NCBI GenBank assembly: GCA_900298995.1
Contig: OMIC01000042.1
Coordinates: 1-56,226 of the forward strand
Reading direction: 5' to 3'
DNA: 56,226 bases
DNA from: Hyphomicrobiaceae bacterium
GTDB taxonomy: Bacteria; Pseudomonadota; Alphaproteobacteria; Rhizobiales; Aestuariivirgaceae
In this document: piece after piece, positions 34,341 to 50,489 of the stretch
Layout of the letters: each line of letters opens with the position of its first letter
Position numbering within the stretch: position 1 is the first letter of the stretch
Program-made: the position numbers and the translations under genes
The notes under the pieces: model-generated
Seen by the model: the letters and a program-made list of their open reading frames with translations, nothing else
Databases searched by the model: none
What the model was told of the DNA's origin: nothing

Positions 34341-36140
34341 ATGCAGAGCGCTTTGAAGCGTAGCGGCCGTGCTGATGTCGTCAGCACGGCAACGCCGACC
34401 TCAAATCGCAGTCTCGCCCAGAATTCAGCCGGGTTCGGGTCGCTTGCCGAGGGCCTTGACTATGCGGCCCGGGGCGTAACCGGTTTCAACTTCTATTCCG
34501 CGCGTGGCGCCCTCGAGACGGTGCTGCCCTATTCAGAATTGCGCCGCCGGGCCATGGCAACGGCTCGCCGCCTGCTGTCGCTCGGTCTGGCTCGCGGTGA
34601 CCGGGTGGCGGTCGTGGCCGAAACGGGTCCGGACTTCATGGCGGTGTTCTTCGGTTGCCAGTATGCGGGACTGATCCCCTGCCCATTGCCCTACACCATG
34701 TATATCGGTGGCAAGGACTCCTACATCGAGCGCGTTGCGGGCATGCTCGCCGCTGCCCGGGTGCAGATCGTGATCGCGGGAGAAGATCTGACGTCCCACA
34801 TCATGGATGCTGCCGCGCGGGCGGGGGTCAACCGGGTCATGAGCCATGCCGAGCTGCAGGCGCTGCCCGAGGCCGCCGCTAAGCTCGAGCCCTTTGGCCC
34901 CTCCGATGATGCCTATATCCAGTATTCCTCCGGATCCACCTCGAATCCGAAGGGTGTTCTGATTTCGCAAAGCGCTATCATGGCCAATGCCCGCGCCATT
35001 CTCCGCGAGGGGCTGAGGACGGGTCCTGATGATCGCGCCTTCTCGTGGTTGCCGCTTTACCACGACATGGGCCTCGTCGGTTTCTGCTTGTCGCCCGCTC
35101 TGGGACAGGTGAGCGTGGACTTCCTGTCGACCTCCGCCTTCGCCCGCCGCCCGGCCCTGTGGCTGAAGCTGATGTCTGACAACAAGTCGACCGTCACCTA
35201 TTCGCCGAGCTTCGGCTATGATCTGGCGGCCCGCCGTATCAACGGCGACGCCGTGACCCTCGATCTCTCGCGCCTCCGGGTGGCGGGTATCGGCGGCGAC
35301 ATGGTGCGCCCGGATGTCCTTGAAGGTTTTGCCGCAACGCTGGCCGTGGCCGGGTTCCGGCAGGAGGCCTTCCTGCCGAGCTACGGCATGGCTGAAACCA
35401 CGCTTGCGATTGCCTTCGTCGATCCCGCCAAGCCGATCCGCATCGATGCCGTCGACCGGTTGGTGCTCAAGTCGGAGGGACGGGCAGTTCCCGCAACCGG
35501 CGGCAATGCGCGGCGGTTCGTCGCCTGCGGCCGTCCGCTCTCCGACAGCAAGGTTGAAATCCGCAGCGCAGACGGCGCCGTTCTGGGCGAGCGCAGCGTG
35601 GGCCGCATCTTCGTGCGCACGCCCAGCCTGATGAACGGCTATTTCCAGAATGAAGACGCAACGGCCGCCGTGGTCGGCGCTGATGGCTTCCTCGACACCG
35701 GTGACATGGGCTACTGGCTGGACGGTGAGATCGTCATCACGGGCCGCGCCAAGGATCTGATCCTGCACAATGGCCGCAACATCTGGCCGCAGGACATCGA
35801 ATGGGCCGCCGAGCAACTCGACGCGCTGCGCGCCGGCGACGTCGCGGCCTTCGCGGTCGAAAATGAGCTGGGCGAAGACGAGGTGGTGGTGCTGGTGCAG
35901 TGCCGCCTGCAGGACATGGCCGCCGCCGAGGCGTTGCGGAACGAGGTGTCCGCCGTCGTCCATCGCAGTGCCGGTGTTGAATGCCGGGTGGTCATGGTGC
36001 CGCCCAAGAGCCTGCCCTTCACATCGTCGGGAAAACTGTCCCGCGCGGCGGCACGGCAGAAGTTCCTGTCGGGCGACATCGCCGAGATCACCGCGGCAAC
36101 CCTGGCGGTGACACAGGACGGGCCCGAGGCTTCGCTCTGA
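34341..36140 (+). CDS. Fatty acyl-AMP ligase of the sphingolipid operon
   Basis: This adenylating enzyme activates a fatty acid and most likely loads it on the ACP encoded two genes downstream. The 599-residue protein has the P-loop YIQYSSGSTSNPKGVLIS, the motif SWLPLYHDMGLVGF typical of FAAL rather than acyl-CoA ligases, PSYGMAETTLAIAF, and GFLDTGDMGYWLDGEIVITGRAKD. A GTG at 34323 could extend it by six residues. The order ligase, dehydrogenase, ACP, serine palmitoyltransferase matches the Caulobacter sphingolipid genes. The AT-rich gap before it (34176-34340) must hold the operon promoter. Confidence 0.9.
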   Translation: MQSALKRSGRADVVSTATPTSNRSLAQNSAGFGSLAEGLDYAARGVTGFNFYSARGALETVLPYSELRRRAMATARRLLSLGLARGDRVAVVAETGPDFMAVFFGCQYAGLIPCPLPYTMYIGGKDSYIERVAGMLAAARVQIVIAGEDLTSHIMDAAARAGVNRVMSHAELQALPEAAAKLEPFGPSDDAYIQYSSGSTSNPKGVLISQSAIMANARAILREGLRTGPDDRAFSWLPLYHDMGLVGFCLSPALGQVSVDFLSTSAFARRPALWLKLMSDNKSTVTYSPSFGYDLAARRINGDAVTLDLSRLRVAGIGGDMVRPDVLEGFAATLAVAGFRQEAFLPSYGMAETTLAIAFVDPAKPIRIDAVDRLVLKSEGRAVPATGGNARRFVACGRPLSDSKVEIRSADGAVLGERSVGRIFVRTPSLMNGYFQNEDATAAVVGADGFLDTGDMGYWLDGEIVITGRAKDLILHNGRNIWPQDIEWAAEQLDALRAGDVAAFAVENELGEDEVVVLVQCRLQDMAAAEALRNEVSAVVHRSAGVECRVVMVPPKSLPFTSSGKLSRAAARQKFLSGDIAEITAATLAVTQDGPEASL

Positions 36141-36159
36141 GTCCGGGCGCTCCGGACCC

Positions 36160-37131
36160 ATGACAGCCCTCATCGCCATCACCGGCGCCACCGGCTTTGC
36201 AGGACGCCACGTGATTGATGCTCTTCTGGCGGAGGGCCACCGCCTGCGCGCCCTGGTGCGCAATCCGCAAACCGCATCGCTGCCCGGCGCCGTCGAACTG
36301 GTTCCAGGCGATCTCGCCGACCGTACGGCGCTGGCCCACCTCGTCGCGGGCACTGATGCTGCGGTGCATCTTGCGGGCGCAATCGCCGCGCCCACCCGTC
36401 AGGACTACTTCACCGCCAATGCCGAAGGTACGCGCGCCCTGATCGAAGCAGCGCGTGCGGTGGCACTGCCGCGGTTCGTTCACATCTCATCGCTGGCGGC
36501 ACGCGAACCGCAGCTCTCCGCCTATGCGGCGAGCAAGCGCGCGGGCGAAGAGATGGTTCGTGCGGACATGGCGGCGCTCAATGCCATCGTCATCCGTCCA
36601 CCCGCCGTCTATGGCCCTGGCGACCGTGGTACGCTGCCGCTCATCCGCGAACTGACGCGCCCCGTGGCGGCAATACCGGCACCGCCTGATGCGCGCTTCT
36701 CGCTCATCCACGCGCGCGATCTCGCGCGTCTCATCAGAGGCGCGGTGCTGAGTGATGTGCAAGGCCTGCACGAGGTGAGCGACGGCACGCCTCGTGGCCA
36801 TGGCTGGGCGGATCTCGTGGCCGCTGCGTCCGCGCTGCGCGGCGGGCCTGTGAGGCCGCTATTCCTGCCGCGTGCGCTGCCGGCCACGGTGGCTGCAGCT
36901 GCAGAGGCCGTCGCCTGGTTTTCGGGCAAGGCGGGCCTCGTCAACCGGGGGAAGATCGCTGAACTCTATCATCCCGACTGGGTGAGCCGCGCCGGCAGCC
37001 TTGCGCTCGCCGATCCCATTCCCTTCAGCCGTGGCCTTGCCGACACCGTGCAGTGGTACCGCAGCGCGGGATGGTTGCCTCCCGCCCGCCGCACCGATAG
37101 AACAGCCCCCAGTTCAGGAACCCTTCGATGA
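36160..37131 (+). CDS. cerR: NAD(P)-dependent epimerase/dehydratase family reductase, CerR-like
   Basis: The 323-residue short-chain-type dehydrogenase of the extended family has the dinucleotide motif AITGATGFAGRHV at the N-terminus, the catalytic Ser-Tyr-Lys set in HISSLAA and YAASKRAGEE, and the typical substrate region after PPAVYGPGDRG. In Caulobacter the protein at this place in the operon reduces the keto group of 3-ketoceramide. That role is inferred from gene order. The stop overlaps the ACP start by four bases (ATGA). The C-terminus has a basic, Pro-rich tail. Confidence 0.83.
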   Translation: MTALIAITGATGFAGRHVIDALLAEGHRLRALVRNPQTASLPGAVELVPGDLADRTALAHLVAGTDAAVHLAGAIAAPTRQDYFTANAEGTRALIEAARAVALPRFVHISSLAAREPQLSAYAASKRAGEEMVRADMAALNAIVIRPPAVYGPGDRGTLPLIRELTRPVAAIPAPPDARFSLIHARDLARLIRGAVLSDVQGLHEVSDGTPRGHGWADLVAAASALRGGPVRPLFLPRALPATVAAAAEAVAWFSGKAGLVNRGKIAELYHPDWVSRAGSLALADPIPFSRGLADTVQWYRSAGWLPPARRTDRTAPSSGTLR

Positions 37132-37367
37132 CCGACACCGCCGCCCAGATCTGCAAGCTGCTGGAGCCCTTCAACAGCAATGGCACCGCGCTGTCGGCCA
37201 AGACCGACATCTCTGCTGACCTCAACATCGATTCGGTCACGGTCATGGATTTCGTGATGGAGGTCGAGGATCACTTCGACATCGAGATCCCGCTCAATGT
37301 GCTGTCGGAAACCCGCACCGTCGAGGATCTCGCAAAGGTCGTCGATTCCCGTGTGAAGAAGGGCTAG
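37128..37367 (+). CDS. Dedicated acyl carrier protein
   Basis: The 79-residue acidic protein has the ACP four-helix pattern with the phosphopantetheine Ser in DLNIDSVTVMDFVMEVED (DSV instead of the usual DSL) and a second acidic helix, IPLNVLSETRTVEDLA. It lies between cerR (four-base overlap) and the serine palmitoyltransferase gene (four-base gap), so it should carry the acyl chain made by the AMP ligase to Spt. This is a separate carrier from the housekeeping AcpP. The stop is TAG. Confidence 0.9.
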   Translation: MTDTAAQICKLLEPFNSNGTALSAKTDISADLNIDSVTVMDFVMEVEDHFDIEIPLNVLSETRTVEDLAKVVDSRVKKG

Positions 37368-37371
37368 AGAC

Positions 37372-38580
37372 ATGGATCTTCTTGCCAAGCTCTCTGGTAT
37401 TGCCGAGCGCCACGCACGCGTGCGTGCGCTGGGCCTCGAAGGCGTGGGGGTGGTCAATGACAAGATCATTTCGCCCACGCGCGCCATCATCGGCGGGCGC
37501 GAGACGATCCTCGCCGGCACCAACAACTACATGGGCATTACCTTTGAACCCGACTGCGTCGCTGCGGGGCAGGAGGCGCTGGCCGAGTTAGGCACCGGAA
37601 CGACCGGCTCACGCATCGCCAATGGGTCGTTCGCGATGCATGCCCAATTGGAGCGCGAGCTCGCTGCCTTCCTGGGCCGCGCCCACTGCATCGTCTTCAC
37701 CACGGGCTATCAGGCCAATCTCGGCATGATGTCGGGTCTCGCGGGTCCGCGTGACACGATCTATCTCGATGCCGACTCGCACAGTTCGATCTACGACGGC
37801 TGTACACTCTCGGGCGCCAAGCTGGTGCGCTTCCGGCACAATGACGCCGCCGATCTCGACAAGCGCCTGTCGCGCGGCGAGGATGACGGGGGCGGCAAGC
37901 TGGTGGTGCTGGAGGGCATCTACTCGATGCTGGGCGACCGCGCACCGCTCGCCGACTTCATCGCCGTCAAGAAGAAGCATGGCTTCCAGCTGCTGCTTGA
38001 CGAGGCACATTCCTTCGGAGTTCTGGGTGCGGGCGGGCGTGGCCTTGCGGACGAGGCCGGGCTGGAGAAGGAGATCGATTTCATCGTCGGCACTTTCTCG
38101 AAGAGCGTTGGCGCCATTGGCGGGTTCGGGGCGGGTGACCATCCCTATTTCGACTATCTGCGGTACGCCATGCGGCCCTACATGTTCACCGCCTCGTCAT
38201 CGCCGGCCTCGATCGCCACCTCGATCGCGGCCTTGCGCAAGCTGGCGGCGGAGCCGCAGCGGCGCAAGCGGCTGATGGAGAATTCAGCGCGGCTGTTCGC
38301 GGGGTTCCGGGCACTGGGCCTTGATATGGGCTGCGATGTCGTGAGCCCGGTCATAGCGGTGAAGTGCCCGGACGAGCCTTCCACCGTGGCGATGTGGGGC
38401 GCGCTCCTCAAGGCCGGCGTCTATGTGAACCTGGCGCTGCCGCCTGGAACACCCAACAAGCTCTGCCTGCTGCGCTGCTCGGTATCCGCCGCGCACTCCG
38501 ACGAGGAGATCGACCGCATCATTGCGCTGTTCGGCTCGGTGGTGGCCGAAGGCCACGGCCTGAGGGCGATGAGCGCCTGA
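37372..38580 (+). CDS. spt: Serine palmitoyltransferase (alpha-oxoamine synthase)
   Basis: This PLP enzyme condenses serine with an acyl thioester to 3-ketosphinganine, the first step of sphingolipid synthesis. The 402-residue protein has the stacking His in LDADSHSSIYDGC, LLLDEAHSFGVLG carrying the PLP Asp and His, and the Schiff-base Lys in GTFSKSVGAIGGFG. LPPGTPNKLCLLR near the C-terminus carries an Arg of the substrate-carboxylate region. A 2-amino-3-ketobutyrate or 8-amino-7-oxononanoate role is possible for the family, but the ACP, ligase and CerR neighbours favour Spt. Its stop lies one base from the stop of the converging kinase gene. Confidence 0.9.
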   Translation: MDLLAKLSGIAERHARVRALGLEGVGVVNDKIISPTRAIIGGRETILAGTNNYMGITFEPDCVAAGQEALAELGTGTTGSRIANGSFAMHAQLERELAAFLGRAHCIVFTTGYQANLGMMSGLAGPRDTIYLDADSHSSIYDGCTLSGAKLVRFRHNDAADLDKRLSRGEDDGGGKLVVLEGIYSMLGDRAPLADFIAVKKKHGFQLLLDEAHSFGVLGAGGRGLADEAGLEKEIDFIVGTFSKSVGAIGGFGAGDHPYFDYLRYAMRPYMFTASSSPASIATSIAALRKLAAEPQRRKRLMENSARLFAGFRALGLDMGCDVVSPVIAVKCPDEPSTVAMWGALLKAGVYVNLALPPGTPNKLCLLRCSVSAAHSDEEIDRIIALFGSVVAEGHGLRAMSA

Positions 38581-38581
38581 G

Positions 38582-39559
38582 CTAGGCCCGGATGAAGGTG
38601 AAGGCGGGGCCGGTCTCGAGCCGCAGCGCTGCGCCCTGGGGCGGGGGAAAGAACTCGCCATCGATGACGAACATCGACGGCGACGTGACCGACAGCTCCG
38701 CAGAGCGGAAGCTCGCCGCCCCCGGCGGCGTGGCTCGGTTGTCGCCGCCATACATCACTGGAAGGATCCAGCGCAGCACCGACGGTACCGGATAGGGCAG
38801 CACTGTCGTGCGGATGGCGCCGGTGCCGCTGCCCCAGAAGGGGCGAGCACCGAGAACCAGCTTGCTGAGCGTCGTCGACATCTGCAGGAGTTGCGTACCC
38901 TCCGCTTGGCGGCGTCCATCGGCTTCGACCGTGATCATGAAGGGCCGGTCGAAGCGGGTCTCGTCGCCGGGCTTCGGAGCAGATATCAGATGGCGGCCGA
39001 CGGAGCGCAGTAGTGTTGCAGCCACTGCAAACTGGCCTTTCACGCCCTGTTCGTTCAGTGCCTGCTGGCAATAGCGCGTGGCCTCTGCCACCGCGCCGGT
39101 GCCAACGAACATGCCATGGCGGGTAATGCCGTCGCCGGGATTGGCGCAGCGGATGGTGTTGCGCACTACCGTCTCGCGGGGCTTCGGCGTGAGCAGCATG
39201 GATGCCTGGGCATCGAGCGAGGAGCTGCGGAAACCCAAATCATTTGCCGAAAGGTTGGTGGTGCCATGCGGCAGGAGACAGAGGCGCGGCGGCGCGAGGA
39301 AGGGATTTCTCTCGGCGAGCTCGGTGAGAATGGCCTGGATGGTGCCATCGCCGGAACTGACGAAGAGATCGGTAACGCCGTCTGCGGCCAGCCCGCTCAG
39401 AAAACCACCGAGCTGTCCGAAGCGTTCGATGACGCGCACGCTTACGCGAGCGTCGCCCGCCAGCCTGTCCGCCAGGGCACGGCCCTTGCCGCCGCCACGG
39501 CCAGCCCGCGGATTGACGATGAGGCCCGATCGGCTTGCCGACTTCGATCCCGGCACCAT
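38582..39559 (-). CDS. Diacylglycerol-kinase-fold lipid kinase, candidate ceramide kinase
   Basis: The 325-residue protein has the DAGK catalytic fold: GLIVNPRAGRGGG at the N-terminus, FVSSGDGTIQAILTEL as the nucleotide loop (SSGDGT rather than GGDGT), and LLPHGTTNLSANDLG. A C-terminal half with YPVPSVLRWILP and VIDGEFFPP follows. In Caulobacter a protein of this family in the sphingolipid region phosphorylates ceramide; I infer the same here from position as the last gene of the converging operon. It starts three bases after the lptG-like stop. Diacylglycerol or another lipid remains possible. Confidence 0.8.
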   Translation of the reverse strand: MVPGSKSASRSGLIVNPRAGRGGGKGRALADRLAGDARVSVRVIERFGQLGGFLSGLAADGVTDLFVSSGDGTIQAILTELAERNPFLAPPRLCLLPHGTTNLSANDLGFRSSSLDAQASMLLTPKPRETVVRNTIRCANPGDGITRHGMFVGTGAVAEATRYCQQALNEQGVKGQFAVAATLLRSVGRHLISAPKPGDETRFDRPFMITVEADGRRQAEGTQLLQMSTTLSKLVLGARPFWGSGTGAIRTTVLPYPVPSVLRWILPVMYGGDNRATPPGAASFRSAELSVTSPSMFVIDGEFFPPPQGAALRLETGPAFTFIRA

Positions 39560-39562
39560 GGG

Positions 39563-40639
39563 TCAGATCGTCTCGGCGCGCAGGGTCATCGCCGCCGCCA
39601 ACGCGCCGAAGGCTGCGACCGGAAGCCATGCGGCCAGCCATGGCGCCACGAAGCCCAGTACGCCCATGGTGAGCGACACGCCATCAACGATGAAGAAGGC
39701 AAAGCCCAGCCCAACACCAGCCGCGAACAGCATGCCGAGCCCGCCGCCGCGCCGGAATCGGGTGGCCAGCGGAACGCACATGCCCATCATCAGAAGGCCC
39801 GAGAACAAGAGCGACAGACGCTTGTTGGCCCATGTTTCGTAAACCCAAACGGGCCGTATGCCGAAGCCGTGATTTTCGATGAAATAGGAGAGCTCTGCCA
39901 GAGACATGTCTTCGGGCGCGCCGGAGCGGATTCCCGCCTGCGCCGGTTTCATGTCGCCGGAATAGACAAGGGTCGGGAAATGCGTGGGTTCGAGGTTGTC
40001 GCGGTAATAGACGAGGACATCGTCGAGCACCCAGCGTCCGCCGGAGAGCACGGCGCGCTTCGCATAGACCTGCTCGCGAAGGAGGCCGTTGGCGTCACGC
40101 CGGAAGATGATGAGCTCCTCCAGTTCAGTGGACTGCGCATTGGCCTGCTCGGCGCGAAGTATGTCGGGACCTGCCCGCATCCAGATCGGGTCCTTCTCGC
40201 CGACCTTGAGCTTGTCGGCGCCATAGTCGCCGAGGCCCCATTGCCGCAGTTGCGGCGTGGTGAGCGGGATCGCGGTATTGGACAGGAAGAATTGCAGGCC
40301 GCCTGCAGCAATGGCAAGCGGAAGCAGCATGATGATGATGCGCAGGGGCGACAGGCCCGCTGCCCAGATTGCCGACATCTCGTTGCGGTAGCTGAGTTCA
40401 GTCAGGCTCAGCAGCATGGCGAGCAGCAGCGAAATGCCGAGATAGTTGGCGAGCACAGAGGGCGCACGATAGGCCATGTATTTGAGGACAATTCCCGAAT
40501 CGTCCGGCCTCAGCGCCTGCAGATCCTTGGCGTGGGCAAGCAGTTCGAGGGACAGCACGAAGATGCAAATGCCGAGCAGGATGCCGACGAAGCGGACGGC
40601 CACCATGCGGTTCAGCATCCAGCCGATGATCCTGATCAT
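39563..40639 (-). CDS. LptG-like permease of the LptF/LptG family
   Basis: The 358-residue YjgP/YjgQ-family protein has six membrane helices (three at each end) around a periplasmic beta-jellyroll-type domain (residues about 130-265), the LptG layout. The conserved segments MLLSLTELSYRNEMSAIWAAG and the terminal helices are clear. It starts at 40639, overlapping the lptF-like stop by four bases (ATGA); an upstream ATG at 40654 would extend it within that gene. Standard lptFG genes in Rhizobiales sit elsewhere, beside lptD and surA, so this pair is probably a second, pathway-specific set. Confidence 0.85.
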   Translation of the reverse strand: MIRIIGWMLNRMVAVRFVGILLGICIFVLSLELLAHAKDLQALRPDDSGIVLKYMAYRAPSVLANYLGISLLLAMLLSLTELSYRNEMSAIWAAGLSPLRIIIMLLPLAIAAGGLQFFLSNTAIPLTTPQLRQWGLGDYGADKLKVGEKDPIWMRAGPDILRAEQANAQSTELEELIIFRRDANGLLREQVYAKRAVLSGGRWVLDDVLVYYRDNLEPTHFPTLVYSGDMKPAQAGIRSGAPEDMSLAELSYFIENHGFGIRPVWVYETWANKRLSLLFSGLLMMGMCVPLATRFRRGGGLGMLFAAGVGLGFAFFIVDGVSLTMGVLGFVAPWLAAWLPVAAFGALAAAMTLRAETI

Positions 40640-41853
40640 GGGGTGCTGCTCCATCCAAGGCGGCGTTGAAGCGCGAGGCGCAGGGCGCCCGCAACATCGC
40701 CCGCGCGGTCGATGGCGGCACTGACCGGGTCATTGGTCAGGGTGAAGCAGACGCCGATGTAGCGCCAGGCCGCGAAGACCGCTAGCAGCAGGCAGGGCAG
40801 CCACATGGTCACGAGCGGCGGCGCCAGACCATGGTTGGAAACCGAAGCGCCTTGGTGGACGATCTCGTTGTAGAGCACGATCAGCACCAGTGCGACACCG
40901 GTACGGAAGCCACGCGGGCTGCGGCGCGAGCCCACCGCGAAGGGAATGGCTAGAAACGGCAGGATCAGGATGCTGACGGCGGTGACCAACCGTTCGCTCA
41001 ATTCGGAGGCTATCTCCGCGCGGGTTGCCTTGGCGGGCGGTTTTTCGAGGGCGGCGAAGAGTTCAGGCAGCGTCAGTTCGCGCTCGTCCACGCCGCGCGG
41101 ACGGAAGATGTCCTTCGAGATGCGCCCGAGCGGGGTGTCGGCGGAGGCAAATTCCGTGACCTCGCCGATCACCGGCGGCGAGACGCTGGTGGAGGGCGGG
41201 GTTTCAAAGGTGAGGCGGTGACCGCCCTCGAGGCGGAGCGTTGGCCGCTGTCCCGGCGCGCTCTCGATCAGTGCGCCGCGCCGCGCCGTGACGGTCTGCG
41301 ATCCGTCCGGGCCCTTGTCCTGATAGATGAAGGCGCGTTCGAAGCTGTTTTCGCCACGGTTGAGCTTGTCGAGAATGAAGGTGCGCTCGCCCGCCTGCAT
41401 GAAGACACCTTCCTCGGCGAGATAAAAGACATCGACATTCTGCACATCGAAGACAACGGAGCGGTAGGCATAGCGCGCATGAGGCTGCATCCATCCCATG
41501 ATGACCAGCGATAGCAGACTCATCAGCGCACCGAGCATGATGACCGGCCGCGCCAGCCGGTTGAGGCTGATCCCCGAGGCCATGAAGGCGTCCGTCTCGG
41601 AATTGGCGGACATGCGCCCGAAGCCCAGAAGCAGGCCGAGGAACAGGGCGGCGGGCAGCGCCGTTCCCAGATAGTGGGGCACGAGATAGGCCAGCATTTC
41701 GAAGACGACGGTGAAGGAACTCTTCTTGCCCAGCGTGGCGTCCAGAAGGCGCACCATGCGATCGGCCAGCAGCATCAGCATGCCGATGACCAGCGCGCCG
41801 GCGAGGGGCAGCGAGACCTGCCGCAGCACGAGCTTGTCGACGAGGCGCAGCAT
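40636..41853 (-). CDS. LptF-like permease of the LptF/LptG family
   Basis: The 405-residue partner permease has the family N-terminus LVDKLVLRQVSLPLAGALVIG, the helix-2 region with LPAALFLGLLLGFGRMSANSETDAFMASG (the coupling-helix segment that would contact an ABC ATPase such as LptB), a central periplasmic domain, and three C-terminal helices. No ATPase gene is nearby, so it would need to share LptB with the lipopolysaccharide system. Its place between a phosphoesterase gene and a lipid kinase gene suggests transport of sphingolipid, which is inference. Confidence 0.85.
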   Translation of the reverse strand: MLRLVDKLVLRQVSLPLAGALVIGMLMLLADRMVRLLDATLGKKSSFTVVFEMLAYLVPHYLGTALPAALFLGLLLGFGRMSANSETDAFMASGISLNRLARPVIMLGALMSLLSLVIMGWMQPHARYAYRSVVFDVQNVDVFYLAEEGVFMQAGERTFILDKLNRGENSFERAFIYQDKGPDGSQTVTARRGALIESAPGQRPTLRLEGGHRLTFETPPSTSVSPPVIGEVTEFASADTPLGRISKDIFRPRGVDERELTLPELFAALEKPPAKATRAEIASELSERLVTAVSILILPFLAIPFAVGSRRSPRGFRTGVALVLIVLYNEIVHQGASVSNHGLAPPLVTMWLPCLLLAVFAAWRYIGVCFTLTNDPVSAAIDRAGDVAGALRLALQRRLGWSSTP

Positions 41854-41916
41854 GGCGGCGCTCAGGCTTCTGGAGGGAGACGGGAGATCATCATGGCAAT
41901 CTAGCCCAGCCGCTTA

Positions 41917-42837
41917 TCAGGAAGAAAGCGCCAATTGAGCCGTCGTGGCGATGGTCCGCGTGGCAGGATCGAAGCTGCGGGTCGTCACTTCGGTGGTCCA
42001 TTTTCCCCCCTGACGCTGGATCCGATAGAGGTTCCACGCGGCGGGCGGATGGTGGGCGGTGCCGGTCATCGACGCCGACGGCACGCCCAGCACATGCACC
42101 GTCCCGAAACGGGATGTCAGCGTGTTGAACATGGGCTCGTGGTTATGGCCATGGAGAACGAGTTCGGCGCCGTGTGCCAGGAGAATGTCGCGGAGCGGCC
42201 CGGCGTCGGTCAGCGCACGCCGGGGGCTGGCAAGGCCGGGCAGGGGCGGGTGGTGGATCATCACGACGCGCGCGAAGCCACGTTCGCGAAGGTCCGGCAA
42301 AAGTGCGGCGAGGGAGTCCCGCTGGATTGCTCCGAGTTCCCCCGAGGCGCGGTGGAGAGGTTGCGGGACCGCCGTCGAGACGCCGATCAGCGCCACGTTG
42401 CGGCGCAGGCGTACATAGGGAAAGGGCGTGCGGATCTGCCCGCTCATCTGGGTCAGCGTCACGCGCATGTCGCCTTGCATGTAGGCTGCGAGATTCGACA
42501 ACCCATGTGTCCAGTCGACGCGGACATAGGTGTCATGGTTGCCGGGCACGAAGCTGATCCAGTTGGGCGCGCCGAAGCCCTCCAGCCAAGCCGCGGCCGC
42601 CGTGAATTCGGCATGTGCGGCCACGTTGACGATGTCGCCGGTGAGCGCCACGTGATCGGGCGCGGCGTCGCGGATGTCGCTGGCGATGGCGTGGGCCACG
42701 GCGGGGCTGTGCTGACGATGACGGCCCAGCCGCCAGTTGATGACGCCCAGCGTCCGCTTCAGCGCAAAATGGCGGCGCGCTGCGCCGTCGGGCAGCGGAC
42801 CGAGATGCAGATCCGAAAGATGCGCAAGCGTGAACAC
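41917..42837 (-). CDS. Calcineurin-type metallophosphoesterase
   Basis: The 306-residue phosphoesterase shows the five metal motifs of the family: LAHLSDLHLG, ALTGDIVN, VPGNHDTY, VMIHHPP and LHGHNHEP. There is no signal peptide. It lies between the ceramide-synthase-like gene (20-base gap) and lptF (63-base gap) on the same strand, so it is probably in the sphingolipid operon. It could hydrolyse a phospho-lipid intermediate or nucleotide-lipid. A general phosphodiesterase role cannot be excluded. Confidence 0.85.
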   Translation of the reverse strand: MFTLAHLSDLHLGPLPDGAARRHFALKRTLGVINWRLGRHRQHSPAVAHAIASDIRDAAPDHVALTGDIVNVAAHAEFTAAAAWLEGFGAPNWISFVPGNHDTYVRVDWTHGLSNLAAYMQGDMRVTLTQMSGQIRTPFPYVRLRRNVALIGVSTAVPQPLHRASGELGAIQRDSLAALLPDLRERGFARVVMIHHPPLPGLASPRRALTDAGPLRDILLAHGAELVLHGHNHEPMFNTLTSRFGTVHVLGVPSASMTGTAHHPPAAWNLYRIQRQGGKWTTEVTTRSFDPATRTIATTAQLALSS

Positions 42838-42857
42838 AGCAGAGCGGGCCAGGGTTG

Positions 42858-44006
42858 TTATGTCAGGTCAAGCGGTTTTTCATAGACGCGGTAGGTCTTG
42901 TAAGGCCGGCCGCCGAAGGCCTCGATCATGTTGCGCATCGGCTTGTTGTCTTCAAGGATCCAAGACAGCTCGGCCCGGGTGGTGCCGCGGGCCGTGTGAT
43001 AGTCGCGCACGCGGGCGATGGTGGACATGCCCAGCGCCGCGCCCAGCGCCGTCCCGTGATACTAGCGCCTGAGCCCCATCAGCGGGATGCGCACTGAGCG
43101 GGGTGGTCCGCCGAACAGCCTGGCCGCAAGCTTCGCCCAGCCGAAGGGCAGGAGCCGTCCGTTGAGATCCACGAGCCAGTCGTTGATGTTGGGCAGGCTC
43201 ACAGCCATGGCAGCTGGCTCGCCGCAATATTCGGCTATGGCGATGTAGTCGCCCGTCACCAGAATGCGGAGATTGTTGCCGAGTGCCGCCATTTCCTCAT
43301 CGGTCCAGGGCACAAAGCCCCAGTTGTCGGACCAGGCGTCATTGGCGATCGCGACGATGGTGCGCAGCTCCTCCGCGAGCCGCTTCTTGTCGAGAGGGCG
43401 GATCACGATGTCGCCGTCGGCGCGCGCCTTGGCGGCGGCTGAGGCCACCCCACGCGGCAAGGCGCCGGTATCGGCGAAGTCGTAGGCGATGAGGTCCTTT
43501 GCCTTCCGGAAGCCGAGGGCTTCGAGCTGTGGGGCATAATAGGGTCGGGCATGGCCCATCATCATCGAGGGCGGCGTGTCGAAGCCATGGATGAGCAGGC
43601 CTGACTCGTCATTGATCGAGAAGCTGAACGGACCCTGCATCCGGGTTGCGCCGCGCTGCCGGAGCCAGCCGCCCGCCGCTGCAGCGAGTGCCGCCACCAC
43701 CCCGGCGTCATCCTCGGCCTCGAGGAAACCGAACTGTCCGACGCCATCCTGGTAGCGGGCGCTCCGCAGGGCGCAGAGCTGGGCGGAGATACGACCGACC
43801 GGCCTGCCAGCCCGCTCGGCGATGAACAGCTCTGCCTCGGCATGACGAAAATAAGGGTTCTTGCGCTGGTCGAGGTGTTCCTGACGCTCGATGTAGAGCG
43901 GCGCCACCCAGTTGGGATCATCGCGGTAGAGGGAGAAGGGCACGTCGAGAAAGGCCTTCAGATCGGCCTTGCCGCGAACCGGGCGGACGCTGACGCTGTT
44001 CACCAT
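42858..44006 (-). pseudogene. bcerS: Bacterial ceramide synthase homologue (GNAT fold) with in-frame amber stop
   Basis: The frame runs from ATG at 44006 for 314 codons, meets TAG at 43064-43062, and continues in the same frame for 67 codons (YHGTALGAALGMST, then RAELSWILEDNKPMRNMIE and GGRPYKTYRVYEKPLDLT) to TAA at 42860-42858. The downstream part is clearly the conserved C-terminus of the family. The N-terminal part has VRPVRGKADLKAFLDVPF and GPFSFSINDESGLLI, typical of the GNAT-like proteins shown in Caulobacter to N-acylate 3-ketosphinganine. One base change (for example from GAG, AAG or CAG) explains the stop. TAG is the normal stop of yccF, the ACP gene, the PotA-like gene and folB, so a recoded amber is unlikely. 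A real nonsense mutation or a sequencing error are the alternatives. Confidence 0.85.
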
Positions 44007-44251: not shown

Positions 44252-44815
44252 ATGTGCGCAGCCATCGCCTGCCAGGACACGGCCCCTGACGATCACGCGG
44301 CCATCGAACATCTGCTTGACCTGAGCTTCGGGTCGGATCGCCGGAGCAAGACTTCGTACCGCCTGCGGGAGGGCAATGTGCCTGCCCCCGGCCTGTCGCT
44401 GGTGGTGCGAGACCCCGGCGTGCGGCTGGCCGGAACCGTCAGCTTCTGGCCGCTGGTCATCGGCGCGCGGCAGAGCGCCGCCCTGCTGCTGGGACCCCTG
44501 GCCGTTCACCCGGACCGTCAGAATCTGGGCATCGGCATTGAGCTGATGCGGCAGGGGCTCGCCCGCGCGCAGGCGCAGGGCCACCGTCTCGTGCTGCTGG
44601 TGGGCGACGAGCCTTACTACGCCAAGGTCGGCTTCCGCAGGATTCCGGACGGCCTCATCAGCCTGCCTGGACCGGTTGATCCGGACCGTTTCCTGTATCT
44701 CGAGCTTGCACCGGGTGCGCTGATGGGTGTTGAGGGTCTGGTGCAGGTGCCCGGCTCAGCGGCCCTCGCGGTACCACAGGGCACCGAAGCACAGCAGCAA
44801 CGCCGCGAGGCTTAG
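44252..44815 (+). CDS. GNAT family N-acetyltransferase
   Basis: The 187-residue acetyltransferase has the acetyl-CoA loop LLLGPLAVHPDRQNLGIGIELMRQGL (the Q/R-x-x-G-x-G/A motif) and the following GHRLVLLVGDEPYYAKVGFRRI typical of YhbS-like members. Upstream ATGs at 44186 and 44207 are open, but the domain starts near 44252, which I chose. The 3' end overlaps the converging membrane-protein gene by 60 bases. The acceptor is unknown. The 245-base gap before it holds the promoters of this gene and of the converging-side sphingolipid operon. Confidence 0.82.
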   Translation: MCAAIACQDTAPDDHAAIEHLLDLSFGSDRRSKTSYRLREGNVPAPGLSLVVRDPGVRLAGTVSFWPLVIGARQSAALLLGPLAVHPDRQNLGIGIELMRQGLARAQAQGHRLVLLVGDEPYYAKVGFRRIPDGLISLPGPVDPDRFLYLELAPGALMGVEGLVQVPGSAALAVPQGTEAQQQRREA

Positions 44816-46816
44816 GAGCGTCGCGAAGAGCGGGATGTCCGCCACGGAGATTACCCGGTGGGCGTGGTTGGCGCGCAGGCCGATCCAGCCGGTGCCGCTC
44901 ATCGGACGTCCGGCATCGACCTTGACGACCTGAGGCTGGCCCTGTTCGAGCCAGTGCACGCCGCCGCCGGTGGCCCGGGCGACGGGATCCAGCACCGCAG
45001 CGGTTGCGACCAGGTTCGACATTTCGCGCGCATCGGCGCTTCCCGCAGCCGCCACGGCGATGAGCTTGCCATCGGTGAGCCGGTAGAGGCCGGCCTCCGT
45101 GACGGGAAGCGATGCCTCGAACCGACCGGGTGAAATCTCGCGCAGGCTCAGTGTCTCGACCTTGCCCGAGGGCAAGGTCACGTTCACCGGTTCCGCGTCA
45201 TCGGCCATGGTGCGGCGCTCGATCAGCAGCTTGCCGCCCGACTGGCGCCCGCTCAACGCCTCTTCCTCGAGATCAGGCTCCTTCATGAGCCAGTGGGCGA
45301 TGCGCCGCAGCAGTTCGGTTTGCGGCCCGCCACCGTCATAGCCGCGTGCCCACAGCCAGCCCTGGTCCGAGAGCAGTTGCGCGACGCGGCCCTTCTCGTG
45401 GCGCGAGAGTACCAGAAGCGGCTTGTCGCGCAGGCCGGACATCAGGGTGTCCTCGGGCTTCGCCGAGGTGTCGACGAGCCGGAACCAGCGGCCCCAGTCC
45501 GGGTCTTCGCCAGCCGCGCCGGGCAGATCCCGGGTCACGGGATGTTTCCGGCCCTGTCCGGTCAGCCTCGGTTTGAAGGGCCCCTCGAGGACATCGCCCG
45601 TCGGTGCGGCCGCGATCACGTCCGAGAGCGGGGTGTAATAGAGGCCATCCTCATCGGCGAGATCGGGCCCGGAAGCGATCAGCACCGCGCCGCCGTCAGC
45701 CACATAGCGCGCGATGTTCGCCATGTAGGCGGCGGGCAGAACCGTCTGCCGGCGGTAGCGGTCGAAGATCACGAGGTCGAACTGGTCGAGCTTGTCGACA
45801 AACAGTTCGCGGGTCGGAAAGGCGATGAGCGCCAGTTCGCGCGTCGGCGTACCATCCTGCTTCTCAGGGGGGCGCAGAATGGTGAAATGCACAAGATCGA
45901 CGGAGGGGTCGGCCTTGAGCAGGTTGCGCCAGGTGCGCTCGCCGGGATGGGGTTCGCCTGACACGAGCAGCACGCGCAGCCTGTCGCGCACGCCTTCGAT
46001 CACGGCAATGGCGCGATTGTTCTGCTGCGAGATTTCGCCGTCGAGCGGTGGCGCGGTGATCTCGATGATGTTCTGTCCGCCATGGCTCACCGGAACGGTG
46101 ACCTCGACTGTCCTTCCGGGCATCACCTCGGTGACGAGCGGCGCCTCACCGCCAGCGGAGATCGCCACCGAGACAGGCGCGCCGGGTCCGTTGACCTCCT
46201 CGACCCGGAAGCTGATGATCTGGTCCTGTCCGACCATGCCGAAGCGCGGCACTTTCTCCAGCGCGATCCGTCTGTCCTTCTCTGCGCGCGAGCCGGTGAT
46301 GAGCCCATGCACCGGCCCGCCGATGTCACTCTGGGCAGCCTCGGGAGGCGCATCGTGAATCTGGCCATCGGTGATCATCACCGCGCCTGCAAAACGCTCC
46401 GGTGGAATGTCGGCGAGGGCGGCGTTGAGGGTGGCGAAGCTGCGGGTTCCGTCTTCGCCGTCATTGAGGCCCGAGGTCACCTCGACCTCACGCAATTCAG
46501 TGCCTGGGAGACGCGCCACGGCGCTGCGCAGGGCTTGCGCGGCCGCATCGGTGCGTGCCCGCCGCTCCTCGCTCTGCTGGCTGAGCGACCGGTCGACAAC
46601 AGCCACGGCAATGTCGCTCAGCGTCTCGCGCTGTTCCGTCCGGATGACGGGGTTGGCGAGTGCCGCCACCAGCAGTGCGAGCGCCAGTGCCCGCAGTGCC
46701 GTGCCCCGCGCGCGGGCAATGCCGAGGAGCACAACGAGGCCCAGTCCCGCCAGAGCCAGCAGGGCAATCACCGGCCACGGCAGCAAAGGTGCGAGCGACA
46801 AGCTCCAGCCGATCAT
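44756..46816 (-). CDS. Large membrane protein of the MoxR/DUF58 operon, glutamine-amidotransferase-like fold
   Basis: The 686-residue protein has two membrane helices at the N-terminus (residues about 10-58), a periplasmic-type body of about 570 residues, and one C-terminal helix. The body includes VAVVDRSLSQQ and VMITDGQIHD (von Willebrand factor A-like turns) and a segment with LVIFDRYRR and GGAVLIASGPD, resembling class I amidotransferase-like folds without an obvious catalytic triad. The start overlaps the DUF4159 stop by four bases (ATGA). Proteins of this kind accompany MoxR ATPases in alphaproteobacteria. Function unknown. Confidence 0.8.
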   Translation of the reverse strand: MIGWSLSLAPLLPWPVIALLALAGLGLVVLLGIARARGTALRALALALLVAALANPVIRTEQRETLSDIAVAVVDRSLSQQSEERRARTDAAAQALRSAVARLPGTELREVEVTSGLNDGEDGTRSFATLNAALADIPPERFAGAVMITDGQIHDAPPEAAQSDIGGPVHGLITGSRAEKDRRIALEKVPRFGMVGQDQIISFRVEEVNGPGAPVSVAISAGGEAPLVTEVMPGRTVEVTVPVSHGGQNIIEITAPPLDGEISQQNNRAIAVIEGVRDRLRVLLVSGEPHPGERTWRNLLKADPSVDLVHFTILRPPEKQDGTPTRELALIAFPTRELFVDKLDQFDLVIFDRYRRQTVLPAAYMANIARYVADGGAVLIASGPDLADEDGLYYTPLSDVIAAAPTGDVLEGPFKPRLTGQGRKHPVTRDLPGAAGEDPDWGRWFRLVDTSAKPEDTLMSGLRDKPLLVLSRHEKGRVAQLLSDQGWLWARGYDGGGPQTELLRRIAHWLMKEPDLEEEALSGRQSGGKLLIERRTMADDAEPVNVTLPSGKVETLSLREISPGRFEASLPVTEAGLYRLTDGKLIAVAAAGSADAREMSNLVATAAVLDPVARATGGGVHWLEQGQPQVVKVDAGRPMSGTGWIGLRANHAHRVISVADIPLFATLLSLAALLLCFGALWYREGR

Positions 46817-49611
46817 TGGCCGAGCCTTTCCAGAAGTGCGGGCACATGTACCTGATCGGCCTTGTAGTTGCCGGTCAGTGCATACATCACGATGTTGATG
46901 CCGGTGCGGAAAGCCAGTTCGCGCTGGCGTTCGGGGCCGGGAATCACGGCATAGAGCGGCGTCCCCATCTCATCCAGCGCCCAGGCGGCGGCATAGTCGT
47001 TGGAGCCGATGATGATGCCGCTGACGCCATCGGTATTGCCGGAGCCCGCGCCCGCCGCGTCGCTGGATTCGACCCACAGCTGGCCGCCATCATAGCGTCC
47101 GGGGAACCGGTCGAGGAGATAGAAGCTGCGCGTCAGCACATGCGACGGCGGCACAGGTTCGAGTGCCGGAATGTCGAGCTTGGCGAGAATGCGGCGCAGC
47201 GCATCGCTCGATGCGGTGGCCCCGCCGGTGAGCGCATCGGTTCCCGCGCCGTCCTCGCGCAGGTCGAAGAAGATGGTGCCACCGCCCTTCATGTAGGCGT
47301 CCATGCGCGCCAGCGCGGCATCGGAAGGGACTGTCGCGTCGGGGCGGACCGGCCAATAGAGCAGCGGGAAGAACACGAGCTCATCGCGCTCGATGTGGAC
47401 GCCCGTGGGCGGGCCCGCCTCGACCGAGGTGCGGTCGCGCAGGGTTTCGGTAAGGCCCCGCAGGCCCTCCTCGCTGATCCGGTCGGTCTCGGCATCGCCG
47501 GTGATGACATAGGCGAGCCTGGTTTCGAGCGCATTTTCTAACGCGAAGTCTGCGGCATCTTCGGCTCGTGCCGGATCGTGTTGAGAGGCTGCGGCGGCCA
47601 GCAGTGCCAGCAGTCCCAGTGCGGCGCGGCGCTGCCGGTTGAAGCCGAGGCGGCCTGCGCCGCCGCTCATCAGCAGAACCGCGAGGCCGTCGGCCAGAAA
47701 CAGCAGCATGGCCAGCGCGAAGGCATAGGGCGCGAGTGCGAGCGCCGGGCGCGGTGTCAGGCCGGTGACCGTCACGCCGGCGGGCAACCCCGCGATTGCG
47801 GTGAGGCGGTCGCCGCTTCGCGTGATGTTGAGCGCGCGTTCCTGTTCACCACGGCGGTAGAGCCCGGGTGGCGTGGCCGCCGAGGCCCTGGCCTTGTCGA
47901 TTGCTGCGGCCGGTATGGGCTGGATCTCGGCGGCCGGGGCCACCAGTTCGCCCGCGCCGTTCAGCATGCGGTAGGGCGCAAAGGCCTGGGCGTCCGGCGC
48001 GCTCGCGGCCGCGACACCGCCGCCGGCCGCCGGGGCGAGGTCGAGCACGCGGCGCAGCATTTCCACAAACAGGCCGGAGACGGGAAGGTTCGACCAGTCG
48101 GCATTGGCGGTCACATGAAACAGCACGATGCGCCCCTTGCCCTGCCGGCTGGCGGTCACCAGCGGAGTTCCGTCGGCGAGGCTCGCCCATACCTTGTCGG
48201 GCAGGTCGCTGTCGGGTTCGGCCAGCACCTGGCGGGAGACGCTGACGCCGGAGTCGACAGCGAGGCCAGCGAAGGGGCTGGTCGCGGGGAAGGGCTGGAG
48301 CGATTGAGGCGTCTCCCAGCTGAGCGCGCTGCCCAGCGCCCGTCCGCCTTCGCGCAGACGCGCGGGAATGAGACCATCCTGCGCCCCGGAGAGCCGGGGC
48401 CCGGCGAAGCGCAGCAGCACGCCCCCCTTGTCGACCCATGCCGCCACCATCGCCTGCTGATCGGCCGGCAGGACGCCGATGTCGGCCAGCACCAGCATCG
48501 ACAGGCCCTGATCGAGCAGGCTCTTGAGCGCGGCGCTGTCGGCGGGTGCTGCCGTGTCGGCGAAGGGGTCAAGAGCGCGCGAGACATAGTAGAGCGGAGC
48601 GAGGAGCGGCTGGGCGGTTTCGGCAGCGGCGCCCGACATCAGGCCAACCGTTTTCCGGCGCCAGCGGTCATCGACCAGGAAGGTGGCGGCCGCATGCGGC
48701 TGGCCATTGATCACGATGCGTCCGGTCTCGTTGCGCAACTCGATGGGAAGCTCGATCCTGCCCTTGGCCAGCGTTGTGCCCGGCGGAAGACGCAGTGTCG
48801 CTTCGCCCAGGCTCCGGCCATTGCCGGCGCGCGCCGTGACCTCGACGCTGCGCTCCGCACCGCTCGTGGCGCCGATCACGCTGAGGTTGATTGCACCACC
48901 CTCGAAGTCAGGCGTTCCGAGTGCGAGCGGCAGGGCGGAGGCCTCCGGCACCAGCACCTCCACCTGTGCGCCGCCGGTGCCAAGAGCGACCAGGCCCGCG
49001 GCGAAGCTGGCAGCCTTCCCGTCATCGAGCCCGTCCGACAGCCATACAACACGCAAGACCGGTTCAGTGGCGAATGCGGTCCGCAGCCGGTCAAGCAGGG
49101 CCATGCGGTCGGGATCGAGGGCCTGCGGCGTGAGCGCGGCGGCGCGGGTCTTCACATCTGCCGCAGCGGCGGGCGCGAGGTCCGGCGGACGCACCGCAGG
49201 GGTGCTCGTTGCCAGCGTCACGGGTGCGCCGGAGAGCGCGGCGGCATCGAGGATCTGCGTCATGATGGACTGGCGTTGTGCCCAGTCGGGTGCCGCCGCC
49301 CAGCCGTCGTCGGCGATGAGCAGCAGCGGAGTGCGCGTCGGCGCGGCCACCTGTCTGGGTGCGTAGAAGGGCTGCGACACGCCGAGGATGAGGAGCGCTG
49401 CCAGGACGAGCCGCAGCAGCAGCAGCCACCACGGCGTCTTGTCCGGCTGCTCCTCGCGGTTGGCGAGCCCCAGCAGCTGGCGGATCGGCGGAAAGCGCAC
49501 GACTTCGGGGCGCGGCGGCGTGAAGCGCAGAAGCCACCAGATCACCGGCAGCAGCAGGAGCGCTGCAAGTGCCAGCGGCGTGGCGAAGGTAATGGCGCCA
49601 GCGAGGGTCAC
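46813..49611 (-). CDS. BatA-like N-terminus plus DUF4159 protein
   Basis: The 932-residue protein starts at a GTG (49611) that overlaps the DUF58 stop by four bases (GTGA); longer in-frame starts reach 49713 but lie inside the DUF58 gene. The N-terminus has the BatA/aerotolerance-type helices (ITFATPLALAALLLLPVIWWLLRF, RFPPIRQLLG), then a long extracytoplasmic domain with VWLSDGLDDGK. A helix pair lies around 650-700 and the C-terminal DUF4159 domain includes ELVFFPLLYWPV and GGGTIFFDLRE. It is part of the MoxR operon, probably in a membrane-bound chaperone-like complex. Confidence 0.87.
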   Translation of the reverse strand: MTLAGAITFATPLALAALLLLPVIWWLLRFTPPRPEVVRFPPIRQLLGLANREEQPDKTPWWLLLLRLVLAALLILGVSQPFYAPRQVAAPTRTPLLLIADDGWAAAPDWAQRQSIMTQILDAAALSGAPVTLATSTPAVRPPDLAPAAAADVKTRAAALTPQALDPDRMALLDRLRTAFATEPVLRVVWLSDGLDDGKAASFAAGLVALGTGGAQVEVLVPEASALPLALGTPDFEGGAINLSVIGATSGAERSVEVTARAGNGRSLGEATLRLPPGTTLAKGRIELPIELRNETGRIVINGQPHAAATFLVDDRWRRKTVGLMSGAAAETAQPLLAPLYYVSRALDPFADTAAPADSAALKSLLDQGLSMLVLADIGVLPADQQAMVAAWVDKGGVLLRFAGPRLSGAQDGLIPARLREGGRALGSALSWETPQSLQPFPATSPFAGLAVDSGVSVSRQVLAEPDSDLPDKVWASLADGTPLVTASRQGKGRIVLFHVTANADWSNLPVSGLFVEMLRRVLDLAPAAGGGVAAASAPDAQAFAPYRMLNGAGELVAPAAEIQPIPAAAIDKARASAATPPGLYRRGEQERALNITRSGDRLTAIAGLPAGVTVTGLTPRPALALAPYAFALAMLLFLADGLAVLLMSGGAGRLGFNRQRRAALGLLALLAAAASQHDPARAEDAADFALENALETRLAYVITGDAETDRISEEGLRGLTETLRDRTSVEAGPPTGVHIERDELVFFPLLYWPVRPDATVPSDAALARMDAYMKGGGTIFFDLREDGAGTDALTGGATASSDALRRILAKLDIPALEPVPPSHVLTRSFYLLDRFPGRYDGGQLWVESSDAAGAGSGNTDGVSGIIIGSNDYAAAWALDEMGTPLYAVIPGPERQRELAFRTGINIVMYALTGNYKADQVHVPALLERLGQ

Positions 49612-50489
49612 CGCGTGGCCTCTCCGGAAATGAGCGCGTGGAGCGCCAGCAGGGCGGGCGCGGGGGCCTGGTCGGTGCGGTGGACGAGAAAGCTCCAGCC
49701 GAGCCGCCGGCACAGCCCGGCGAGATCGGCGCGGTGAGCTGCCAGGCGTTCGGCATAGGCCCCACGCAGGGTCTCGGCGCGTGCGGAGAGGAACGTGACC
49801 GGCCCCGTCATGTCGTGGAACTCGGTGCGTCCCTCATAAGGCAGGGTTTCCTCGGCGGGATCCGCGATCTGCACGACGTGGCCCTTCACACCGGCTTCCG
49901 CAATCGGCGCGAGGGCCTCGGCGATGGTGGTCACGGGGTCTAGAAAATCGCCGATCAGAACCGCGCTGGCAAAGCGCGGCAGTCGCTGCGGTGCAGGCAG
50001 GCCCGCGCCTCCGGCAGCGCCCACCATCCAGTCGGCCAGCCGGACGAGCTGGGCGCGGGCATGGTCGGGCGCGAAGGGCGCACCGAATGCGCCCACACGC
50101 TCCTGCGCACGCAGGGCGAGCGATGCCAGGGCGAGCGCCAGCAGCCGGGCACGCTCGAGCTTGCTGACGGGCGCCAGATGCGAGCGGAAGCTCATCGACA
50201 CGGCGGGCGAGGCCCAGAGCCACAGCGTGTTGGCGGCCTCCCACTCATTCTCGCGGATGAACACGCGGTCCGAGCGCGCGGATTTGTGCCAGTCGATGCG
50301 CTGGGTTGAATCGCCGAAGCTGTAAGGGCGGTACTGCCAGAAGGACTCGCCGGGTCCGGCGCGCTTGTGGCCATGCTCGCCGAGGATCACCGTCGCTGCG
50401 ATGCGTTCGGCTTCCACCAACAGGGGCGGGAGTGCCTGAACCTGCGTCGCGGCACGTCCGGCAAGGGCGAGGGCGCTATCCTGCGGCAT
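49608..50489 (-). CDS. DUF58 domain protein
   Basis: The 293-residue soluble protein has the DUF58 hallmark FWQYRPYSFGDSTQRIDWHKSARSDRVFIRENE, followed by a von Willebrand factor A-like domain (SAVLIGDFLDPVTT). It starts five bases after the MoxR stop. DUF58 proteins are regular partners of MoxR ATPases and the BatA-type membrane proteins and are thought to help assemble or activate envelope or metal-dependent enzymes. The specific client is unknown. Confidence 0.9.
   Translation of the reverse strand: MPQDSALALAGRAATQVQALPPLLVEAERIAATVILGEHGHKRAGPGESFWQYRPYSFGDSTQRIDWHKSARSDRVFIRENEWEAANTLWLWASPAVSMSFRSHLAPVSKLERARLLALALASLALRAQERVGAFGAPFAPDHARAQLVRLADWMVGAAGGAGLPAPQRLPRFASAVLIGDFLDPVTTIAEALAPIAEAGVKGHVVQIADPAEETLPYEGRTEFHDMTGPVTFLSARAETLRGAYAERLAAHRADLAGLCRRLGWSFLVHRTDQAPAPALLALHALISGEATR

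Follow-up and report, generated by a model that had tools for sequence, protein, structure and literature searches.

A locus of nine genes at positions 34341-44006 of a 56,226-nucleotide stretch of DNA (the window: contig C42, OMIC01000042.1, of assembly GCA_900298995.1) is likely, from sequence comparisons, to serve for making and exporting sphingolipids in a bacterium that has no lipid A, and in it a pair of LptF- and LptG-type permeases (LptF2G2) would pass a sphingolipid to a shared Lpt bridge. The pair would probably work as part of an LptB2FG-type machine dedicated to sphingolipid. The host genome (2.99 Mb, 99.36% complete) belongs to the genus Aestuariivirga (Hyphomicrobiales), with A. 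litoralis KCTC 52945 among its nearest named relatives. The genes form two converging operons, with a fatty acyl-AMP ligase, a CerR-like reductase, an acyl carrier protein (ACP) and serine palmitoyltransferase (Spt) encoded in this order on the + strand, and bCerS, a metallophosphoesterase, LptF, LptG and a DAGK-type kinase on the - strand. The final stop codons of the operons are one base apart (spt ends at 38580 and the kinase gene at 38582). This arrangement of the genes is as described in an earlier note made from the letters of the window. The reading is based on the genes themselves, their conservation, the separate grouping of their LptF and LptG, the absence of lpxC, lpxB and a lipopolysaccharide (LPS)-type pair, and the retention of LptB, LptA, LptC and LptD.

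A search of the window genome with PF03739 (gathering cut-off 27.9 bits) returned exactly two genes, both inside the locus: LptF (40636..41853, - strand; 1.6e-64, 218.6 bits) and LptG (39563..40654, - strand; 7.4e-54, 183.5 bits). Hence the proposal of the earlier note that this was a second LptFG pair was rejected, because no PF03739 gene lies beyond the locus and its pair is the sole one. The site beside lptD was also empty of another lptFG. In LpxC-bearing relatives the usual order is pepA-lptF-lptG-lptD-surA-pdxA-ksgA, whereas in the window genome pepA adjoins lptD in divergent orientation and lptFG is missing from the space between them. One LptD and one LptC were found, with LptA and LptB present in an LptC-LptA-LptB operon (extra copies of LptA and LptB were not searched for), in agreement with the note's suggestion that LptB is shared. 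LptB scored 375 bits against an NCBIfam cut-off of 240 and LptC also exceeded its own cut-off; LptA (58.4 bits) fell below the cut-off of 71.7.

The absence of lipid A genes was assessed with LpxC and LpxB (LpxA, LpxD, LpxK and KdtA were not searched for). Both were absent from the window genome and from 37 of the 37 genomes of the genus set, which includes the window genome and was taken as Aestuariivirga. In 24 genomes representing the order's other families, LpxC was present in 22 and LpxB in 19. Three LpxC-bearing genomes also lacked LpxB, so that single absences may be assembly gaps, which would hardly account for the loss of two genes in 37/37 genomes.

The phylogeny of the permeases was analysed with a tree of 110 rows, built by a quick method with SH-aLRT support only and no bootstrap. 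LptF and LptG were separated, and the lptD-linked rows formed one clade in each half (99% in both), with no sphingolipid-locus row inside either of them; one row counted as lptD-linked, that of genome G198 (G and L numbers are our handles for genomes and loci), adjoins neither lptD nor Spt/bCerS. The sphingolipid-locus rows formed an LptF clade (97%) and an LptG clade (85%), and both window proteins were placed inside these groups. A first tree of 93 rows agreed with this result; in it an LptG-like row of G050 and a row from the lptD-type region of G041 grouped with the lptD-linked rows, and the placement of the divergent rows from G041, G050 and G055 was unsure. One genome of the same order, G042, contained LpxC together with one lptD-linked pair and one sphingolipid-locus pair. 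The tree comparison proposed in the earlier note thus places the window pair with the sphingolipid-locus LptF and LptG, apart from the lptD-linked pairs, and supports the idea of a locus-specific pair. The NCBIfam LptG profile (cut-off 240) pointed in the same direction: three of three lptD-linked relatives passed (295.1, 283.6 and 270.4 bits) and three of three tested sphingolipid-locus LptG proteins failed, the window LptG scoring 192.6. The corresponding LptF score was not a decisive yardstick, since the window LptF missed the cut-off (206.6, cut-off 230) but the lptD-linked LptF proteins (229.1, 226.5 and 228.7) also fell narrowly short of it.

A sphingolipid-locus LptG profile was then run against 144 alphaproteobacterial genomes, all 90% or more complete, with most families represented by a single genome. 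Sphingolipid-type LptG was detected in 18 of them, including the window genome, the other 17 scoring at least 148.6 bits. Sixteen of these 17 loci hold Spt or bCerS, and the remaining one, G082, which is cut by a contig end, has phosphoesterase, CDP-alcohol transferase and kinase matches. A check of co-occurrence with spt across alphaproteobacteria had been suggested in the earlier note. The next-best places scored 129.9 bits or less, and 23 of them were examined down to 105.6 bits (G167, G162 and G080 within this range, and all lower-scoring places, lie outside the examined set). Twenty-two of the 23 adjoin lptD, the exception being G198; none showed Spt, bCerS, ACP, kinase or phosphoesterase, and there were distant matches to the AMP ligase in two and to the reductase in G198.

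LpxC was present in 120 of the 144 genomes. It was missing in 13 of the 18 genomes with sphingolipid-type LptG (10 families) versus 11 of the 126 others (Fisher p 1.3e-8, kinship ignored). The two states were found even within one family, f49, in which LpxC and an lptD-linked LptG occur in G083, and G193 has no LpxC and sphingolipid-type LptG only. A further LptG match away from the locus (E value of 1.5e-8 or better) was seen, among the matches listed, in five of the five sphingolipid-type genomes with LpxC and in none of the 13 without it. It was part of a pair beside lptD in G166, G197 and G165, was present as contig-end pieces, one adjoining lptD, in G082, and lay away from lptD in G140; in three of the 13 lpxC-less genomes the neighbouring match to the LptG profile was the locus's own LptF. 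LptD was kept in all 13 lpxC-less genomes, with pepA and lptD adjacent and no lptFG between them in nine, including the window genome. In the other four (G121, G125, G193 and G199) pepA was not seen and the lptD stretch, whose upstream side in G121 ends at the contig end after about 1.3 kb, contained no LptFG open frame.

Together, these data make it fairly likely that the Lpt system is an exporter of outer-leaflet lipids with exchangeable LptFG front ends, and that in several alphaproteobacterial families in which lipid A genes are missing the front end for LPS has been lost from its conserved position, the one for sphingolipid has been retained, and LptB, LptC, LptA and LptD carry only sphingolipid. 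Lipid-A-less genomes are natural knock-outs that separate two possible Lpt cargoes. If this reading is true, the cargo is determined by LptFG, the "LPS export" genes of Sphingomonas and its relatives may be misnamed, and bacteria without LPS might be susceptible to Lpt inhibitors.

Several observations weigh against the reading of this pair as a sphingolipid exporter. Support for the sphingolipid-type LptG clade was just 85%, and the long G107 row was left unresolved beside it. The contrast in LpxC loss counts genomes and not independent losses, and the count of 0/13 for LptG outside the locus rests on the LptG profile and the matches listed rather than on a PF03739 search. Eleven lpxC-less genomes have no sphingolipid-type LptG, and six of them (G065, G079, G115, G137, G147 and G155) have neither LptG nor LptD. 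However, G076 and G111 keep LptD with no LptG match, and G108, G132 and G175 have LptG beside lptD (G132 and G175 by coordinates); these five genomes either fit the idea poorly or have lost genes in assembly. G140 has LpxC and no LptFG near its lptD, and G050, without LpxC and LpxB, keeps an LPS-type-like LptG. The LptG residues in contact with LPS (given in the available excerpts of PMC6744409 and PMC5548808) were also compared. In the column of E. coli K40, in transmembrane segment 1, arginine was found in 14 of the 14 lptD-linked LptG aligned and a basic residue in two of the 16 sphingolipid-locus LptG (those of the window genome and A. litoralis); the K34 column contained aspartate in the 14 lptD-linked proteins. 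The alignment of this segment shifts by about three residues between two methods, and no clear distinction between the LptG types emerged at the positions that contact lipid A in E. coli LptG. Finally, the bCerS gene is interrupted in the window assembly.

A further question is whether this interruption means that the locus is decaying in the window strain, with bCerS dead and no ceramide made. The gene (42873..44006, - strand; open part 43062-44006, longest frame from 44093) had no Pfam or NCBIfam match. It was named from its homologues in 37 of 40 compared loci (one per genome, chosen by LptG; several stop at a contig boundary, and remote homologues may have escaped), its 75% identity to the A. 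litoralis homologue and the predicted fold of the latter. This intact homologue was modelled as a tandem GNAT fold (pLDDT 90.4) with tandem GNAT acetyltransferases as best PDB matches, as would be expected for an N-acyltransferase. In the window gene codon 315 (of about 380) is an in-frame TAG, the single one in the 378 residues aligned with A. litoralis. The bCerS homologue recognised in the earlier note is therefore present, but interrupted, and no second copy was found on searching the genome. Identity to A. litoralis was the same before the stop (236/314, 75%) and after it (47/62, 76%), and the ratio of nonsynonymous to synonymous substitution (dN/dS) against the same species was about 0.2 for Spt, LptF, LptG, the phosphoesterase and the ligase. 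An assembly error or a very recent change fits these values. In addition, 23 of the 24 loci scanned in relatives contain an intact bCerS of 375-389 amino acids (none was found in L114). Decay of the locus is thus unlikely.

The locus itself is real and conserved, and the five genes tested are under purifying selection. Nineteen of the 20 Aestuariivirga loci compared (window included) combine the AMP ligase, CerR, ACP, Spt, bCerS, the phosphoesterase and LptG, which indicates that the arrangement is not due to chance; of the 20 loci, 14 contain LptF and 16 contain the kinase. The acyl-AMP ligase (34341..36140, + strand; GTG frame start 34323) is AasR-like, as for loading of fatty acids onto ACP (PF00501, 3.3e-56; NCBIfam NF006624, 760 bits, cut-off 600). 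It is followed by the CerR-like NAD-binding epimerase/reductase (36160..37131, + strand; PF01370, 3.8e-29; 39.6% identity to a like-positioned gene of Sphingomonas parapaucimobilis), ACP (37128..37367, + strand; PF00550, 4.9e-10) and Spt (37372..38580, + strand; NCBIfam NF047599, 579 bits, cut-off 500; solved Spt 2x8u, 1e-131). On the opposite strand the kinase (38582..39559; PF00781, 2.9e-12) resembles the ceramide kinase CpgB, described in the available excerpts of PMC10331486, by position alone, and the calcineurin-like metallophosphoesterase (41917..42837; PF00149, 7.4e-10), present in 20/20 genus loci compared, is perhaps the counterpart of CC_1158. The Caulobacter-type ceramide set (Spt, AMP ligase, ACP, CerR and bCerS) is complete at the locus apart from the interruption of bCerS, the names CerR and bCerS resting on neighbourhood and family and not on sequence comparison with Caulobacter. 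The interpretation of the region as a locus for sphingolipid (ceramide) synthesis, put forward in the earlier note, is supported.

LptF2G2 might serve sphingolipids through a different bridge, or leave them in the inner membrane, with LptD kept for another cargo. No LptD match was found in any of the 40 compared loci, and G076 and G111 retain LptD in spite of lacking LpxC and an LptG match. However, among the lpxC-less genomes LptD is kept in 13/13 with sphingolipid-type LptG and missing in 6/11 without it, and the LptC-A-B operon remains in the window genome, so that we regard this explanation as quite improbable. A housekeeping LptFG relocated beside sphingolipid genes and still handling LPS, or an LPS-like glycolipid made by an unrecognised route, would agree with the pair being the only one in a genome with LptB, LptA, LptC and LptD, a situation that the earlier note had taken as the mark of a housekeeping pair, but it was rejected as very improbable, given that the tree sets the pair apart from lptD-linked pairs across the class, G042 and G166 each have one pair of each type, LpxC and LpxB are missing in all 37 genomes of the genus set, the pepA-lptD site is empty and the LptG cut-off separates the proteins tested.

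In the preferred reading, sphingolipid export through the shared Lpt bridge, the enzyme steps would follow those of Caulobacter by analogy. The AMP ligase and ACP would supply the acyl chain, Spt would form the long-chain base, bCerS would add the second chain, CerR would reduce the ketone, and the kinase and phosphoesterase would shape the head group. A flippase would first be needed to cross the inner membrane; a candidate is the ABC exporter that adjoins bCerS in some relatives, which is not beside the window locus and was not sought elsewhere in the genome. LptF and LptG, a branch of the LPS-permease family living in sphingolipid loci, would form with the genome's LptB an LptB2FG-type extractor, which would take up the completed sphingolipid at the periplasmic side of the inner membrane and load it on the LptC-LptA bridge, and from there LptD would place it in the outer leaflet. 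We infer the molecule transported, the direction of transport and the use of LptD from the observations given above.

The route of bacterial sphingolipids to the outer membrane is described as open in two 2024 papers (available excerpts of PMC11324152 and PMC11087976); according to the latter, Spt and bCerS are cytoplasmic and CerR is periplasmic, no flippase or transporter had been identified, and sphingomonads replace LPS by sphingolipids. According to the excerpts of PMC11324152, the sphingolipid region of Caulobacter crescentus spans CC_1168-CC_1152, with LptC2, LptF2 and LptG2 as CC_1168, CC_1156 and CC_1155. The products of CC_1168, CC_1166, CC_1156 and CC_1155, with orthologues in Sphingomonadales, were proposed there in 2024, untested, to move the phosphosphingolipids of Caulobacter. 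Hence the link between Lpt permeases and sphingolipid genes drawn in the earlier note is present here but is not new as an idea. The Caulobacter region resembles the window locus in having spt, ACP, CerR, AMP ligase, cerS, kinase, phosphoesterase and an LptF/LptG pair, although the equivalence of the window pair to CC_1156/CC_1155 rests on neighbourhood and these same excerpts and not on sequence. Unlike that region, the window locus has no ABC flippase and no CPG2 head-group genes. Caulobacter has LPS and second versions of LptC, LptF and LptG (same excerpts), whereas the window genome has the sphingolipid-type pair alone; LpxC was found in Caulobacter vibrioides in a control search, in contrast to the window genome, which lacks lpxC and lpxB. 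The E. coli LptB2FG extractor of LPS shares with the window genome the PF03739 permeases and LptB, LptC, LptA and LptD. The window pair differs from this type in its tree position, its location away from lptD, its LptG score below the NCBIfam cut-off and the lack of LpxC and LpxB. In open-access titles and abstracts (most subscription journals and bioRxiv were not covered) we found no report of a sphingolipid-type pair as the sole LptFG of lipid-A-less bacteria, and among the literature matches listed no paper on lipids named Aestuariivirga.

A search of plasmid records with the window LptG gave one match, in Sphingomonas parapaucimobilis (NZ_CP155753.1). In this record lptF and lptG, annotated as LPS export genes, are flanked by spt and a bCerS homologue (65.9% identity to the bCerS of G070), with ACP and CerR upstream. 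The two proteins fall in the sphingolipid groups (FastTree) and show 26-28% identity to the window pair, and the stretch differs from the window locus in having no lipid kinase among its 26 annotated features.

Among the 40 compared loci, matches were found to bCerS in 37, Spt in 32, the kinase in 32 and the phosphoesterase in 31. The kinase was thus dropped as the defining partner of LptFG, eight loci that keep LptG having no kinase match. The gene at the position of CC_1161 was absent from the window genome and present in 14 of the 37 genus genomes. These two results suggest that the constant partner of LptFG, and the enduring link, would be ceramide synthesis and not phosphorylation; the phosphorylation proposed in the earlier note is weakened by them. 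Head-group genes vary, with a CDP-alcohol transferase, two nucleotidyltransferases and the CC_1161-position gene in some relatives and not in the window locus. By position and family matching, no counterpart of the CPG2 genes CC_1161, CC_1159, CC_1153 and CC_1152 was found in the window locus (the last three were not searched for genome-wide). The head group in the window bacterium is perhaps ceramide phosphate.

Other arrangements were observed among the relatives. In a sub-clade of the genus (loci L043, L045, L082, L086, L087 and L089; L044, L046, L083, L084, L085, L088 and L090) LptG alone remains in the locus and LptF-like genes of a different branch are elsewhere, and in G036 both LptF branches stand in tandem, as if one LptF had displaced the other. 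A solitary extra LptF-like gene was seen in A. litoralis (G018; L081, 9352-10512) and also in L073, L039 and L042, with no adjoining match to a sphingolipid gene. G050 (L049, 5253-8514) has a sphingolipid-type pair plus the LPS-type-like LptG and a divergent LptF. G115 (5.4 Mb in one contig, listed as 100% complete) gave no LpxC, LptG-profile or LptD match and possibly has another kind of outer membrane.

In G040 (L047, 1840-4450) a gene of the PF05118 Asp/Asn hydroxylase family and an ABC exporter gene lie immediately upstream of bCerS, and homologues of both occupy a like place in G042 (L050, 15061-17656); they are a candidate lipid hydroxylase and a candidate flippase, respectively. G055, a genome of the same order with LpxC and LpxB, contains in L054 (2604-15527) a second, very divergent LptF/LptG pair in a cluster that includes LptB (326.8 bits, cut-off 240). 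Its neighbours are an inositol-3-phosphate synthase, a PgpA-like phosphatase, a bCerS-like protein (39%), ACP, a ketosynthase and an Spt-like enzyme (467 bits, under the cut-off of 500), and the whole may be an inositol-sphingolipid cluster equipped with a separate LptB2FG. In the window, the locus is adjoined at 44756-50489 by DUF58, BatA/DUF4159 and weakly glutamine-amidotransferase-like genes, and homologues of the two nearest of them adjoin many of the genus loci.

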